Source: Celeribacter persicus
GTDB lineage: Bacteria > Pseudomonadota > Alphaproteobacteria > Rhodobacterales > Rhodobacteraceae
Direction: 5' to 3'
Length of the DNA stretch: 64,000 nucleotides
NCBI RefSeq assembly: GCF_003050785.1
Contig: NZ_QAOH01000004.1
Span: 62,001-126,000, forward strand
The position numbers and the translations under genes were made by a program. Numbering within the stretch: the stretch's first letter is position 1; each line of letters starts with the position of its first letter. The notes beneath the pieces were generated by a model. It made no database searches. It was not told the DNA's origin and saw only the letters and a list, made by a program, of their open reading frames with translations. Positions 4,293 to 9,471 of this stretch are shown here, piece by piece.

Positions 4293-4976
4293 ATGCGGCT
4301 CTTCGTCGGTCTCGGCAATCCGGGCGCGAAATATGCGGGAAACCGCCACAACATCGGCTTCATGGTGCTGGACCGGATCGCCTCCGATCACGGGTTTTCG
4401 CCTTGGCGCGCAAAATTTCAGGGGCAGACGTGTGAGGGACGTCTGGGGCGTGACAAGGTCATCCTGCTCAAGCCGGAAACCTTCATGAACCTCTCCGGGC
4501 AATCGGTTGGCGAAGCCATGCGATTTTACAAGCTCGACCCTGCCGATGTCGTTGTTTTTCATGACGAACTGGACCTCGCCCCCGGCAAGGTCCGGGTCAA
4601 GACGGGTGGAGGCCATGCCGGTCACAACGGGCTACGCTCGATCCATCAGCACATCGGCGCCGATTACGACCGGGTACGTCTCGGCATCGGCCACCCCGGC
4701 CACAAGGACCGGGTCGCGCCCTATGTCCTCTCCGATTTCGCCAAGGCGGATCAGGACTGGCTCGACGATGTGCTTCGGGGCTGTTCCGACGGGGCGCCAG
4801 CGCTTGCCGATGGTGAGGCAGCGAAGTTTTCCAACGCGGTCGCGCTCCGCACCGCCCCGCCGCGCAGTTCGACGGGCACGCAAACACCCAAGGCCAAGGC
4901 TTCCACCAAGACCGAGGAACCGCCCGCAGAAGACACCCGCTCCCCGCTCGAAAAGCTACGGGACAAGTTTCTATGA
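4293..4976 (+). CDS. pth: Peptidyl-tRNA hydrolase
   Basis: 227 residues; releases tRNA from peptidyl-tRNAs that drop off the ribosome. The family signature is intact: [18 protein letters not shown] at the N-terminus with the catalytic His near residue 19 and Asn near 9, [13 protein letters not shown] near residue 90 with the essential Asp, and [12 protein letters not shown]. The C-terminal 40 residues are an alanine-, lysine- and proline-rich extension common in alphaproteobacterial Pth. AAGGGGAG precedes the ATG. The stop overlaps the ATG of the next gene (ATGA), so the two are probably translated together. Confidence 0.95.
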
Positions 4977-6013
4977 GCTGGCAAACGGCCTTCACGGCGC
5001 AGGCCCGGTCCTGCCGCGATCTCGGCTCGCCCTTCACGGCGATGCTGCTCGACAGTTTCGTCGCCTTTGGCCTGCCTGAAGGTCTGATCGGCACCCGCAT
5101 TGGCACATGGCCCGGCGACATTTCCAGCAACGGCGCTTCCGTGCCGTTGCGCCTTGCAGGCGCGCTGCACGGGATGGTGCTCGAAGGTTTGGATACGGAC
5201 CTGATGGCGCTCTACCCGCCGCGGGGTACACCCACAGAGGCACAGCTTCACAAAACCGCCTGCGCCGCCATCGCCCGGCACGAAGCCTATGTCGATCAAC
5301 GCCTGAACGATGCGCCGCAGACCAACGAGGTGGCCCGTGCCAGCGCGCTGATCCTCGCCGCCGATGCGCTTGCCGCTCATACCGGCCTGCCGCTCGTCCT
5401 GTCGGAACTGGGCGCGAGCGCGGGGCTCAACCTGAATTTCGACCGGTTCCGGCTTCCCTCTCCCGAAGGCGATTTCGGCCCGTCGAACAGCCCGGTGGTC
5501 CTGACACCCGACTGGCGCAGCCCCACGCCCACACCGCACGGCTTCACCGTCACCGAGCGACAAGGCGTCGATCTCAGCCCCCGCGATCCGGTGGCGGAGC
5601 GTCTGCGGCTTTTGTCCTTCATCTGGCCCGACCAGATCGCTCGTTTTGAGCGGATCAAAGCCGCGCTCGATCTCGCCACGAACCATCCGCCCAAGGTCGC
5701 CAAAGCCGACGCCATCGACTGGCTCGCAGAGCGCCTGTCGCAAAACCATCCGGGCCAGTTGCATCTCGTTTATCACACCGTCGCGTGGCAATATTTTCCG
5801 AAAGAGGTACAGGCACGCGGCGAAAGGCTTCTGGCGGAAGCCGGAGCACGGGCGAGTGAGGTGGCGCCTCTTGCACGTCTCGCCATGGAAGCGGACGGCC
5901 AAGCGCCCGGTGCGAAGCTCACGCTCACGCTGTGGCCCGACGGAACAGAGCACGATCTCGGACGATTTGATTTTCACGGGCGGTGGATCGACTGGCTCCC
6001 GCCGCAGTTCTGA
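4973..6013 (+). CDS. DUF2332 family protein
   Basis: 346 residues matching the DUF2332 family: N-terminal [13 protein letters not shown], central [19 protein letters not shown] near residue 145, and a late block [14 protein letters not shown] near 262. The central and late blocks look like the glycine-rich loop and a following strand of a Rossmann-type fold, so a methyltransferase-like architecture is possible, but no reaction is known for the family. It overlaps pth by four bases (ATGA) and is followed 11 bases later by a DUF2237 gene, so pth and both DUF genes probably form one operon. Confidence 0.75.
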
Positions 6014-6024
6014 CGGAGGACAGG

Positions 6025-6399
6025 ATGGAAAAGGCCCCTTCTCTCAACGTTATGGGCGGTGTGCTCACACCCTGCTCCCACGATCCCCTGACCGGATATT
6101 TTCGCGATGGGGCCTGCAATACCTGCGCCGAGGATCACGGCAGCCATACGGTTTGCGCCGTGATGACGGCGGAATTTTTGGCCTATTCGAAATATGTCGG
6201 CAACGATCTCTCGACGCCCCGCCCCGAATACGGTTTCGCGGGGCTCAAACCCGGCGACCGGTGGTGCCTCTGTGCCAGTCGTTTTCTTCAGGCGCATGAC
6301 GAGGGCTGTGCGCCGAAAGTGTCGCTGAGTTCCACCCATCTGAGCGCGCTCGACATTGTACCGCTTGCCGTGCTCAAACAGCACGCGCTCGGTCAGTAA
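6025..6399 (+). CDS. DUF2237 family protein
   Basis: 124 residues from MEKAPSLNVMGG, chosen because GGAGGACAGG lies just before this ATG. The product has the DUF2237 pattern: LTPCSHDPLTGYFRDGAC, a Cys-rich segment (CNTCAEDHGSHTVCAVMT), then GFAGLKPGDRWCLCASRF and a C-terminal LSALDIVPL. Length and motifs fit the family, which is soluble and of unknown function. Several conserved Cys and His suggest metal or redox chemistry, but this is only an inference. Last gene of the pth operon; the next gene converges. Confidence 0.8.
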   Translation: MEKAPSLNVMGGVLTPCSHDPLTGYFRDGACNTCAEDHGSHTVCAVMTAEFLAYSKYVGNDLSTPRPEYGFAGLKPGDRWCLCASRFLQAHDEGCAPKVSLSSTHLSALDIVPLAVLKQHALGQ

Positions 6400-6418: not shown

Positions 6419-6934
6419 TCAGGCCACTTGTTCCGGCGTCTTCTCCGGAAGGAAGCGATCCTCCATCAGATCGTCGAGGAACAGACTCAAAAGCTGTGAA
6501 GCGCCATTGACGCCCGCCTTGCGATAAACCGCGTTGGTTTGCGCCTTGACCGTCCCCTCTGAGGTTTCACGCAGCCGGGCGATTTCCGCGATGGGAAAGC
6601 CCTTGATCAGGAAAAGCGCAACTTCGCGCTCGGCCGGTGTCAGACCCCATTCGGAGAACCGCTCCTCCATCACATCGGCAAAGGCCGAAGCAGCACGACG
6701 CAGTTTGTTTTCCGCCAGACTGCGCCGGATCATGGAGCGCCGAAGCGCCAGCCCTCCAACGATCACCCCGAGGATCAGGCCAAGGGCCGCACCCAGTTCG
6801 ATCACTTCGCGAATTTGCCAAGAGATAGGGCGGGCGCGCAGACCGAGGACGGATGCCACGATGTCGAACACGAAGAAAACGGCGCAGAAGCTCTGCACCA
6901 CAAGGATGATGGCAAGGACGGCACTGTCTTTCAC
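6419..6934 (-). CDS. Membrane-anchored LuxR-type HTH regulator
   Basis: 171 residues. Two membrane segments come first (about residues 5-30 and 45-65, separated by LRARPISWQIREVIELG), then a short linker helix and a C-terminal LuxR/GerE helix-turn-helix: LTPAEREVALFLIKGFPIAEIARLRETSEGTVK (about 100-132). There is no receiver domain. The DNA-binding domain would sit on the cytoplasmic face of the inner membrane. It starts 12 bases after the stop of an Asp-rich secreted protein gene, and a related Asp-rich gene lies further upstream on the same strand, so it may sense the envelope state in which those proteins act. Signal and targets are not visible. Confidence 0.8.
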   Translation of the reverse strand: MKDSAVLAIILVVQSFCAVFFVFDIVASVLGLRARPISWQIREVIELGAALGLILGVIVGGLALRRSMIRRSLAENKLRRAASAFADVMEERFSEWGLTPAEREVALFLIKGFPIAEIARLRETSEGTVKAQTNAVYRKAGVNGASQLLSLFLDDLMEDRFLPEKTPEQVA

Positions 6935-6946
6935 GAAATCCGGGCC

Positions 6947-7369
6947 TCAATCATCATCGTCATCGTCGCCGCCATCATCCTCGTCATCATCATCGTCGTT
7001 GTCATCGTCGTCGCCGCTGTCATTGTCGCGATCATCATCCCGACCGTCGTCACGGCTGGTGCTCCTGCGGTCACGATCTTCGCTGTCAGCATTACGGTCG
7101 TCATCACGGTCATCGTCGTCATCGACTTCCCAATAATCCCGGAGGATTTCTCCCGTCGCCGGGTTGATGATGATCTCCCGGCGCATCGTATCGTTCTCGG
7201 CCACGATCCGCGTCCGCCCCAGAAGGGTGCGCCCCATGGTAATCCTGCTGTAGCCCTGCGCCTTGAGCTGGGCGATGACCTGATCGACCACGCTCGCGCT
7301 CTGCGCGAGGGCGGGGGCCGTGATCAAGAAGCTCACGGCAAGGCCGGTGATGAAGAGCCTGCGCTGCAT
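6947..7369 (-). CDS. Secreted PepSY-like protein with poly-aspartate tail
   Basis: 140 residues. A signal peptide (MQRRLFITGLAVSFLITAPALAQ, cut after ALAQ) is followed by a PepSY-like module of about 60 residues: VIAQLKAQGYSRITMGRT, a strand RIVAENDTMRREIIINPATGEILRDYW. The last 55 residues are almost only Asp with some Arg and Asn. Such a tail should bind divalent cations in the periplasm or outside the cell (inference). The leader ACAGGAAAGGACA before the ATG is shared with the next gene upstream, which also has the same domain order, so the two are likely tandem duplicates. The tail is encoded by imprecise GAY triplet repeats, prone to length change. Confidence 0.75.
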   Translation of the reverse strand: MQRRLFITGLAVSFLITAPALAQSASVVDQVIAQLKAQGYSRITMGRTLLGRTRIVAENDTMRREIIINPATGEILRDYWEVDDDDDRDDDRNADSEDRDRRSTSRDDGRDDDRDNDSGDDDDNDDDDDEDDGGDDDDDD

Positions 7370-7457
7370 GATGTCCTTTCCTGTCCTCTCCCCAACTTAA
7401 CATAACGTCGACCTGCCCCACCATGGGACAGGCCGCTGATGTCATGAAAACAACCGA

Positions 7458-7916
7458 TCAGTCGTCATCATCATCGTCATCATCGTCATGGTCGTCGTCA
7501 TCATCGTTGTCATCACGATCATCATCATCGTCGTGATCATCATCGTCGTCGTCATCGCGATCGTCATACCGATCATCGTCGCGATCGTCATCGTAACGGT
7601 CATCGTCATCGGTTTCGACCTCGACACCGCCGACATTGTTCGTACGGTCGTCGTCATAGGCTTCGTCGCGCCATTCCTTCTGGCTCAAGACACGCTCGCG
7701 CTCCCGCACAACCTCGCCACTGGTATTGTCGATCCGCAGATCGACCTCCTTGCCGTCGATATAGACTTCAACCTCGGTATAGCGAAATCCACGGTCGATT
7801 TCGATCCGGGTCGCCCCCGGGTACATCGAGACGATTTCTTCCGTCGTCGGTTGTGCCACGGCCACCGTCGCCCCAAGCCCGGTGACGAGTGCTGAAATCA
7901 TGAGAACCTTATGCAT
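7458..7916 (-). CDS. Secreted PepSY-like protein with poly-aspartate tail (paralogue)
   Basis: 152 residues from MHKVLMISAL, chosen because the signal peptide starts here and AGGAAAGGA lies seven bases before the ATG. The signal peptide ends VAVAQ; then follow a PepSY-like segment (EEIVSMYPGATRIEIDRGFRYTEVEVYIDGKEVDLRIDNTSGEVVRE), a short linker, and about 55 residues of Asp with Arg, Tyr and His. Domain order and ribosome site match the next gene downstream. The pair and the membrane LuxR protein after them lie on one strand with small gaps. Role unknown; cation binding or a sensor input is a guess from composition. Confidence 0.75.
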   Translation of the reverse strand: MHKVLMISALVTGLGATVAVAQPTTEEIVSMYPGATRIEIDRGFRYTEVEVYIDGKEVDLRIDNTSGEVVRERERVLSQKEWRDEAYDDDRTNNVGGVEVETDDDDRYDDDRDDDRYDDRDDDDDDDHDDDDDRDDNDDDDDHDDDDDDDDD

Positions 7917-8096
7917 CTGAGTGTCCTTTCCTGTACTGTTGAACAAATTGGATGGTCGGGCCGTCTTGGCCTCGGTCTCGAATTTGCCCGGATTGCAGCA
8001 GGTCGGCTATTGGCATGAGGTTTATCGCGGTTTACGCGCTTGTCTCTAAACCTTTGGTATTCGGACATAAACTCAGGTTTAAAGGAGCCGATCAAA

Positions 8097-8126
8097 AGAA
8101 AAGCCGCCCCACAGGACGGCTTTCCC
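8097..8126 (-). terminator. Intrinsic terminator of trpB
   Basis: Read leftwards: stem AAAGCCGTCC / GGGCGGCTTT with loop TGTG followed by TTCTTTT, starting about 20 bases after the trpB stop. Confidence 0.8.
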
Positions 8127-8147: not shown

Positions 8148-9398
8148 TTATTCTGCGTCGCGGCCTTCGTCCCCGGCGATATCCGCCCCAAGATGACGCG
8201 CCACGGTGAAGATATCCTTGTCACCCCGCCCCGACAGATTGACGACGATGATGTGATCTTTTGGCAGATCACCAGCGATCTTCATCACATGGGCAACCGC
8301 ATGACTCGATTCGAGCGCGGGAATGATTCCTTCGGTCCGGCAACAGAACTGGAAGGCCTCAAGCGCCTCCTTGTCGGTGATCGAAACATATTGCGCCCGG
8401 CCCGTATCATGCAGCCAGCTGTGCTCCGGTCCGATCCCCGGATAATCGAGCCCCGCAGAAATCGAATGGCCTTCAAGGATCTGCCCGTCTTCATCTTGCA
8501 ACAGATAGGTGCGGTTACCGTGCAGCACGCCCGGACGCCCGCCCGTCAAAGATGCGCAATGCTCCATCCGGTCGTCCACCCCGTGACCGCCCGCTTCCAC
8601 GCCGATGATACCGACGCTTTCGTCATCGAGGAACGGATGGAACAGACCCATCGCGTTGGAGCCACCGCCCACCGCCGCGACCAGCGTATCGGGCAGACGC
8701 CCCTCGCCTTCCTGTTCAGCCAATTGCCAGCGCGTTTCCTGACCGATGATGGCCTGAAAATCGCGCACCATTGCCGGATAGGGGTGCGGCCCCGCCACAG
8801 TACCGATGCAATAGAACGTGTCGCGCACATTGGTCACCCAATCGCGCAGCGCGTCGTTCATCGCATCCTTGAGCGTCCCGCGGCCGGATTTCACCGGCAC
8901 GACCTTCGCCCCCAGAAGGTTCATCCGGAACACGTTCGGTTTCTGACGCTCCACATCGGTCGCGCCCATATAAACGATGCACTCCAGCCCGAATTTGGCA
9001 CAGACCGTCGCCGTCGCCACGCCATGCTGCCCCGCACCGGTCTCGGCGATGATCCGGGTCTTGCCCATGCGCCGCGCCAACAGAATCTGCCCCAGCACGT
9101 TGTTGATCTTATGCGCGCCGGTGTGGTTGAGCTCTTCGCGCTTAAGATAAATCTTCGCGCCGCCCAGCTCCTCGGTCATCTTCTCGGCGAAATAGAGCGG
9201 GCTCGGACGCCCGACATAATGTTTCCAGAGATCGCGCATCTCGGCCCAAAATTCGGGATCGTCCTTGGCCTTGTTATATTCCTCCTCAAGAGCGAGGATC
9301 AGCGGCATCAGCGTCTCGGAGACGAAGCGCCCGCCGTAAATGCCAAAGCGTCCCTTCTCGTCCGGGCCACTCATGAAGCTGTTGTAAAGATCGTTCAT
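8148..9398 (-). CDS. trpB: Tryptophan synthase beta chain
   Basis: 416 residues from [16 protein letters not shown] lies eight bases before this ATG. Condenses indole and serine to tryptophan with PLP. The PLP-lysine is in [11 protein letters not shown] (Lys97), the phosphate-binding loop is [10 protein letters not shown], and SGRGDKD near the end closes the active site. Length and motifs fit TrpB1, the partner of TrpA; trpA is not in the window. It follows trpF with a gap of about 100 bp containing a copy of a dispersed GAGTATTT motif, so the two may not be strictly co-transcribed. Confidence 0.96.
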
Positions 9399-9471
9399 CG
9401 CGATGCTCCTTTGCGGATCACACATGGATGTAGCGCAGGGGCCGGGTCCGGTAAAGCGCGCCCGTTTCCTT

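Follow-up and report, generated by a model that had tools for sequence, protein, structure and literature searches.

What is sensed, and what is controlled, by a membrane-bound LuxR-type regulator whose gene follows two genes for small secreted proteins with PepSY-like modules and aspartate-rich tails? Such a set, termed here A-B-R, consists of three minus-strand genes downstream of trpB (8148-9425) in the window, the 64,000-nucleotide stretch of the Celeribacter persicus genome that was analysed, and all three genes are present as a first-pass annotation of this DNA had described them. Gene order, partner motif, operator and domain exchange are sequence-level results; as read from them, the module is real and conserved, and it is probably autoregulated.

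Layout of the A-B-R locus

The genes and the elements associated with them are placed as follows.

7458..7916, minus strand: gene A, secreted PepSY_2-like protein of 152 aa with an Asp tail, distal to R
7461..7610, minus strand: acidic tail of A, residues 103-152
6947..7369, minus strand: gene B, secreted PepSY-like protein of 140 aa with an acidic tail, proximal to R
7214..7228, minus strand: TLLGR hairpin motif of B
6950..7123, minus strand: acidic tail of B, residues 83-140
6419..6934, minus strand: gene R, membrane one-component LuxR-type (GerE) regulator of 171 aa, GTG start
6848..6931, minus strand: helix 2-29 of R, first membrane helix, with Gln14 (predicted)
6743..6820, minus strand: second membrane helix of R, within the helix predicted at 39-95, with Glu46 (membrane limit judged by eye)
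6485..6643, minus strand: GerE HTH of R, residues 98-150 (Pfam match)
8068..8081, unstranded: candidate operator palindrome TAAAC-N4-GTTTA (pattern searches)
8029..8052, unstranded: candidate operator half-sites GGTTTA-N12-TAAACC
8019..8024, unstranded: candidate extra operator half-site GGTTTA
7922..7934, minus strand: leader of A (13 bases), interpreted as ribosome-binding site
7372..7384, minus strand: leader of B (13 bases), interpreted as ribosome-binding site
8100..8123, minus strand: G+C-rich hairpin and following T-rich stretch behind trpB, probably its terminator (by eye)

The hairpin, which by eye is kept in aligned relatives and was not called by the terminator scanner, probably separates A-B-R from trpB as its terminator. 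A consensus sigma-70 scan returned no promoter; a CNAAT(A/G)G-like element at about 8005-8015, downstream of the last operator half-sites and found likewise in many operons, is possibly part of the promoter. Convergent to R are DUF2332 and DUF2237 genes at 4973-6399, and a DUF2237-like open reading frame (named by eye) also lies near R in another locus (L048).

The secreted proteins A and B

The start of A had been placed at 7946, which is not kept here: ATG 7916 is the most likely start, because the 13-base leader at 7922-7934 would otherwise fall inside the gene. This leader, ACAGGAAAGGACA, had been reported as common to A and B, and the window does contain two exact copies, at 7372-7384 and 7922-7934, with no other place matching at up to one mismatch (0.08 expected). 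A function as a regulatory element was rejected in view of the ribosome-binding-site distance and of conservation of the core only, the AAAGGA-like core alone being retained in nine aligned A leaders, and the leader is therefore read as an ordinary ribosome-binding site.

The tails, once described as almost all Asp, are indeed Asp-rich but fall short of that description, with 40 Asp among 50 residues in A and 35 among 58 in B. The codons are mixed (23 GAT and 17 GAC in the tail of A, 17 GAT and 18 GAC in that of B), and the tails are therefore not a pure triplet repeat; cation binding by such tails is plausible. Both proteins are devoid of cysteine. The proposed PepSY-like modules score below the Pfam cut-offs (PepSY_2 at 15.6 bits against 24.3 in A, PepSY at 15.0 bits against 24.0 in B), but the predicted structure of B has one helix and four strands, with a mean pLDDT of 86.9. 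The B model was compared with 4exr (Z 6.7, rmsd 3.0 over 67 residues), with 5boi YpeB (Z 5.2, rmsd 7.5 over 72 residues) and with 2gu3 YpmB (Z 4.5, rmsd 3.8 over 62 residues), in each case with unrelated structures at similar Z. Foldseek with the same model gave no match at E 0.001, and no credible hit came from running the B profile against the sequences of solved structures.

The regulator R

For R, two membrane helices and a LuxR HTH had been claimed, with no receiver domain and a start twelve bases after B, and each element of this description was borne out. Both membrane helices are predicted, GerE (PF00196) matches at 24.6 bits, above the Pfam cut-off of 23.5, as well as in 22/22 R family members at E 0.01, and 12 bases separate the stop of B from the start of R. 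As regards a NarL-type response regulator, R shows no match to the N-terminal receiver domain of that class even at E 1, and its N-terminal half is predicted as two helices. In the predicted structure, helices 2-29 and 39-95 are joined by a loop at about 30-38 and followed by the HTH at 100-161, the second helix continuing without a break into the HTH linker. Across 58 aligned R proteins, two residues of the membrane helices stand out, Gln14 as invariant and Glu46 as nearly so.

A Foldseek search with the R model gave no match at E 0.001, its top rows being GerE domains. The best NCBIfam match is NF047608, the LIC13292 family transcriptional regulator, a profile of 166 positions that matches 58/58 aligned R proteins at E 0.001. 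In R, residues 76-157 alone match, at the C-terminal end of the profile, and the score of 58 bits lies below the family cut-off of 200, so R is not assigned to that family.

Conservation of the gene set

Of 61 relatives searched with the R protein, 35 gave a match, some by the HTH alone. With an R profile at E 1e-20, matches were obtained in 87 of 149 family genomes, each of a different genus; at E 1e-15, the class yielded 14 genomes among 240, 3 of them from the same family as the window, and the phylum 8 among 200, 6 of them from that family. R is rare outside its family. Two genomes from another family of the class, G284 and G388, carry a PepSY gene with an Asp-rich tail together with R (L293, L294), and each has a second R gene, that of G388 (L286) lying behind cytochrome b561. 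Within the genus, at least nine of 20 genomes (G000-G019) keep the A-B-R order with acidic tails (L001-L009), which is more than chance; G003 has a looser version (L049), and in G013 (L047) A is missing while a B-type gene is present whose tail is weakly acidic; the remaining nine contain no A-B-R set among the matches listed. The nearest among the best 80 named loci are from Celeribacter (L079-L081), a member of the Roseobacteraceae in the NCBI taxonomy.

That the genes would be neighbours in relatives was supported by a census of 129 unique R, reduced to 127 usable loci by removal of 2 at contig ends, in which a same-strand PepSY gene lies upstream of R in 110 loci. PepSY was assigned here by profiles built in this analysis rather than by Pfam cut-off, the computed gene starts used in neighbourhood scoring are approximate, and two G064 fragments with an R match fall outside the sample. 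The 127 loci comprise 76 direct loci, defined by a PepSY gene on the strand of R and no more than 350 nt upstream of it, 32 with the order PepSY-cytochrome b561-R, 2 with PepSY further off, 1 with a divergent PepSY gene and 16 without PepSY nearby. The whole collection, which is enriched in close relatives, gives 194 of 214 unique R with PepSY upstream, 192 of them on the same strand (238 R loci, merged to 217 by identity of R, minus three at contig ends). The best 80 named loci, closest relatives by selection, contribute 74 with an R not already counted, of which 73 are direct and one lies at a contig end.

The C. persicus genome itself encodes eight GerE genes, two of R type. As a control, the six others have no PepSY match within about 1.5 kb. 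The second R-type gene (G000:C2:170086-170553; 5069-5548 in L057) has neither a PepSY neighbour nor the operator described below, and no cytochrome gene beside it; its neighbours, named by eye, are a ksgA-like gene and a small gene resembling VOC/glyoxalase.

The expectation that the regulator would keep company with Asp-rich genes holds for the PepSY partner, with which R mostly occurs, but less so for the tail: a strongly acidic tail, meaning 40% or more Asp+Glu on some upstream PepSY protein, is found in just 40 of the 76 direct loci. Many partner tails are Gly-rich or absent, and in the cytochrome b561 form the tail of the PepSY proteins is almost missing. With tails so distributed, it is the adjacent PepSY protein, not the Asp tail, that accompanies R most steadily. 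On the R tree, acidic tails of direct loci change 27 times, compared with 47.1 times when shuffled. The conserved unit is PepSY plus R, and Asp tails are common but labile. The interpretation offered in the first-pass annotation, that of a conserved set with a membrane LuxR-type regulator, is therefore retained, but without the Asp tail as a core part; the operator, the EF-hand-like substitutions and the cytochrome b561 form go beyond it.

Two partner positions and exchange of domains

At 80 loci R is directly preceded by two PepSY genes, and the two positions can be told apart by a T-x-L-G-R-like motif, which is placed in the turn between the first two strands of the predicted B fold. It is present in 141 of 154 proximal direct PepSY proteins, in none of 80 distal ones and in none of the 38 of the cytochrome form. 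Strongly acidic tails occur in 62 of 80 distal and 51 of 80 proximal proteins. At position A the Asp tail persists while the domain varies, being PepSY, EF-hand-like or none recognised. EF-hand-like proteins with an Asp tail occupy position A in L140 and L145, and one is the sole partner of R in L209. All three contain the canonical EF-hand loop pattern; their profile scores are 25.5 bits against a cut-off of 25 for EF-hand_6 in L140 (run on the tail-shortened protein), 31.7 against 25.9 for EF-hand_5 in L209 with the tail shortened (17.3 against 25 for the best match with the full tail), and 18.2 against 25 for the best EF-hand match in L145. Six further loci (L104, L105, L123, L176, L180, L192) encode at position A a protein in which no domain is recognised besides its signal peptide and Asp tail. 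The exact operator stands at the head of eight of these nine exchanged-domain operons, namely L209, L140, L145 and five of the six domain-less ones. Separately, a 2OG-Fe(II) oxygenase-like gene (by eye) is inserted between A and B in L145, L193 and L199.

These substitutions bear on whether the Asp tails are simply neutral low-complexity expansions riding on a functional PepSY-R pair. Tail length and composition vary, and the tails change frequently on the tree, as this explanation would have it; against it stand the domain-less secreted proteins that keep tail and operator, the mixture of GAT and GAC codons and the strongly acidic character of most distal PepSY proteins, and we regard neutrality as highly improbable.

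Electrostatic pairing between Asp tails and a basic loop in R was also considered and rejected. The loop of R in the window has a charge of +2, and a raw rank correlation of 0.22-0.25 across 150 direct loci is gone with independent contrasts, loop and tail charge giving r of -0.007 and 0.010 after correction for phylogeny (this correlation and the R-tree analyses exclude R proteins whose profile coverage was short). Since loop charge does not track tail charge after this correction, direct contact of that kind is not supported.

A different reading takes the module to sense general envelope or outer-membrane damage, as DbfQ-DbfRS does, the acidic tails being a protective output that, for example, bridges or buffers LPS-bound cations. 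DbfQRS responds to outer-membrane perturbation in the accessible sections of its description (PMC12714742), and the PepSY partner is steadier than any cation-binding module; replacement of PepSY by an EF-hand-like domain in three operons, however, points to a cation rather than to damage. Damage sensing is considered possible but doubtful.

A candidate operator at the operon head

Hexamers were counted in 189 regions upstream of the first PepSY gene, those shorter than 150 bases or containing N being left out. GGTTTA/TAAACC ranks first in direct operons, with 194 occurrences against 12.4 expected from shuffles and presence in 85 of 151 operons, and also first in the cytochrome form, with 18 against 2.6 in 14 of 38 operons; its copies keep fixed mutual distances. 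An unbiased dyad search, carried out like the other operator counts on 146 of 154 direct loci (those with 1.4 kb or less upstream being left out), placed TAAAC-N4-GTTTA at the top, in 98 of 146 direct operons compared with 0.0 in shuffles, and GTTTA-N12-TAAAC second, in 47 of 146. A further half-site lies within 45 nt in 86 of the 98 operons with the dyad. The version with a degenerate centre, TAAACYNNRGTTTA, is found exactly in 88 of 146 direct operons and at up to one mismatch in 102, leaving 44 without an operator at that tolerance; reversed TAAACYNNRGTTTA as a control occurs in 0 and 1 of 146, respectively. Downstream of R, the degenerate version is found in 0 of 141 cases at up to one mismatch and the plain dyad in 1 of 140.

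Some operons of the cytochrome form keep this layout in a TAAGC-N4-GCTTA version, with 4 exact and 9 one-mismatch cases among 38 operons, none among 36 downstream regions, and 25 of 38 operons without it at one mismatch. The TAAAC version occurs there in 2 (exact) and 5 (one mismatch) of 38, and the TAAGC version in direct operons in 1 (exact) and 2 (one mismatch) of 146. A half-site letter thus tends to shift with the regulator branch while the spacing stays constant, as would be expected if R recognises the site.

In the C. persicus genome, both patterns occur only at this operon head; the reversed controls occur twice for the bare dyad and not at all for the half-site pair, and since the reversed dyad is found twice, uniqueness alone is not enrichment. 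Across the 149 genomes, the 16-base palindrome is present at 23 places and its reversed control at five; 17 of the 23 precede an R gene by 656-1681 nt. A wide regulon acting through the exact 16-base operator was rejected on these numbers, with six places away from R genes compared with the five of the reversed control (of the six, all but G104:C137 were inspected), and the distribution of strong sites therefore suggests that the regulon is mainly the operon itself. In one single case (L308, G083:C5:44724-44739), the exact 16-base operator stands just before an open reading frame with RTX-like Gly-Asp repeats, identified by eye.

The cytochrome b561 form

The cytochrome b561 form has a sister branch of the regulator (L055, L062, L063, L065, L066, L072 and others), and it introduces a further explanation, in which the family senses periplasmic redox state or electron flow, the PepSY-cytochrome b561-R arrangement is the original and the Asp-tailed one is derived. 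In the collection, PepSY-cytochrome b561 precedes 38 of the 217 unique R, the R tree requires 4 changes between the two forms against 34.2 when shuffled, and part of the cytochrome form shares the operator layout. The set in the window, on the other side, has no cytochrome gene, A and B have no cysteine, and the R tree is rooted at the midpoint only, which does not fix the older form; redox sensing is judged unlikely. No literature joining PepSY and cytochrome b561 was found in the open-access literature. Elsewhere in the C. persicus genome (G000:C17:65909-66145, L278), a PepSY_2 gene above the Pfam cut-off stands directly before a cytochrome b561-like gene, and the locus gives no match to R.

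Proposed mechanism

On balance, we lean towards A-B-R being a self-contained, autoregulated envelope module in which R senses through its secreted partners, with a cation as the likely signal. R would be a membrane-anchored one-component regulator in which, according to the structure prediction, a helix hairpin with a loop of about ten residues leads through a long helix to the HTH. R appears to have no sensor domain of its own, and sensing would be handed to the PepSY protein B encoded next to it, which probably uses its T-L/W-L-G-R hairpin to contact R, in its membrane part and from the outer face. The cation or ligand state of B, and of A, may then be passed along the long helix to the HTH. 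Judging from the operator distribution, R probably binds TAAAC-N4-GTTTA at the operon head and would set A-B-R expression as an activator or a repressor, thereby controlling mainly its own operon. If R mainly controls its own operon, the main product would therefore be a pool of periplasmic acidic proteins, and the feedback loop would adjust this pool of cation-binding proteins.

The signal would most likely be a free divalent cation, calcium first, bound by the Asp tails, the PepSY modules or the EF-hand-like modules. Calcium is favoured because EF-hand-like modules replace PepSY and because metal binding by PepSY proteins has been published; lanthanides or other cations are possible, and the cation step is the weakest link of this reading. 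A bolder and more tentative proposal, which we offer as speculation, is a membrane-tethered LuxR-type switch, lacking a sensor domain, that uses interchangeable secreted cation-binding modules (PepSY, EF-hand or bare poly-Asp) as both sensor and output. It would keep periplasmic calcium in homeostasis by buffering, much as calsequestrin comes to mind from muscle, and would make a new class of envelope signalling in Alphaproteobacteria.

Comparison with known systems

In the open-access literature, no described system of exactly this build was found, in agreement with what had been stated from the sequence, nor was any related literature on PepSY with LuxR and membrane. The membrane-bound one-component regulators ToxR and CadC carry their DNA-binding domain at the N terminus. 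Like ToxR, TcpP and CadC, R would act from the membrane as a one-component regulator; unlike ToxR and CadC, its HTH is C-terminal and of LuxR type. The terms LuxR and GerE are absent, by term search, from the accessible text of a survey of transmembrane transcription regulators (PMC10269533).

PepSY proteins that bind metal are described in the accessible sections of two reports, LanPepSY for lanthanide (PMC11845868) and UipA for uranyl and iron, the latter with the two-component genes uipRS upstream of uipA (PMC8963506). A and B resemble these proteins in having PepSY-like domains and acidic residues that could serve for metal, as acidic residues or an acidic face do there; LanPepSY and UipA differ in having two PepSY domains each, and no membrane LuxR partner is described for them in those sections. 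BqsRS/CarSR of Pseudomonas aeruginosa has been reported as calcium-regulated (PMC11559002, accessible part), while another report, likewise accessible in part, assigns Fe2+ sensing to BqsS and suggests that calcium may be sensed by another protein, either of this operon or from elsewhere (PMC12666569). It resembles A-B-R as a membrane signalling operon with two upstream PepSY genes and differs as a kinase with a response regulator. These genes, PA2659 and PA2658 before BqsS, are cited in the available text of PMC12714742 among PepSY-kinase modules, which are said there to be widespread.

The closest known system is DbfQ-DbfRS of Vibrio cholerae. According to the accessible sections of PMC12714742, DbfQ is a secreted PepSY protein whose gene lies upstream of dbfRS, and it was shown to control the adjacently encoded membrane sensor DbfS, a kinase that it binds and shifts to phosphatase. 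A-B-R shares with it a small secreted PepSY gene just upstream of a membrane signalling gene. It is set apart by a single membrane LuxR-type R in place of a histidine kinase and response regulator, by the apparent lack of a periplasmic sensor domain in R, by partners that are often Asp-tailed and in a few cases have EF-hand-like loops, and by a shared operator that points to self-control.

Two questions become testable through A-B-R, namely the role of the PepSY domain, called unclear in the accessible part of PMC12714742, and the way in which a signal enters a membrane one-component regulator without a periplasmic domain, because the system is compact, belongs to a cultured genus and offers a partner motif, a predicted DNA site and PepSY-to-EF-hand-like swaps. 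If the cation reading were true, a bacterial calcium-buffer homeostat would exist in a major marine group. In outline the module resembles these systems in its working, but with its one-component membrane LuxR regulator it is not a member of the PepSY-two-component family; A-B-R is PepSY-linked signalling with a membrane LuxR-type regulator in place of the two-component pair.
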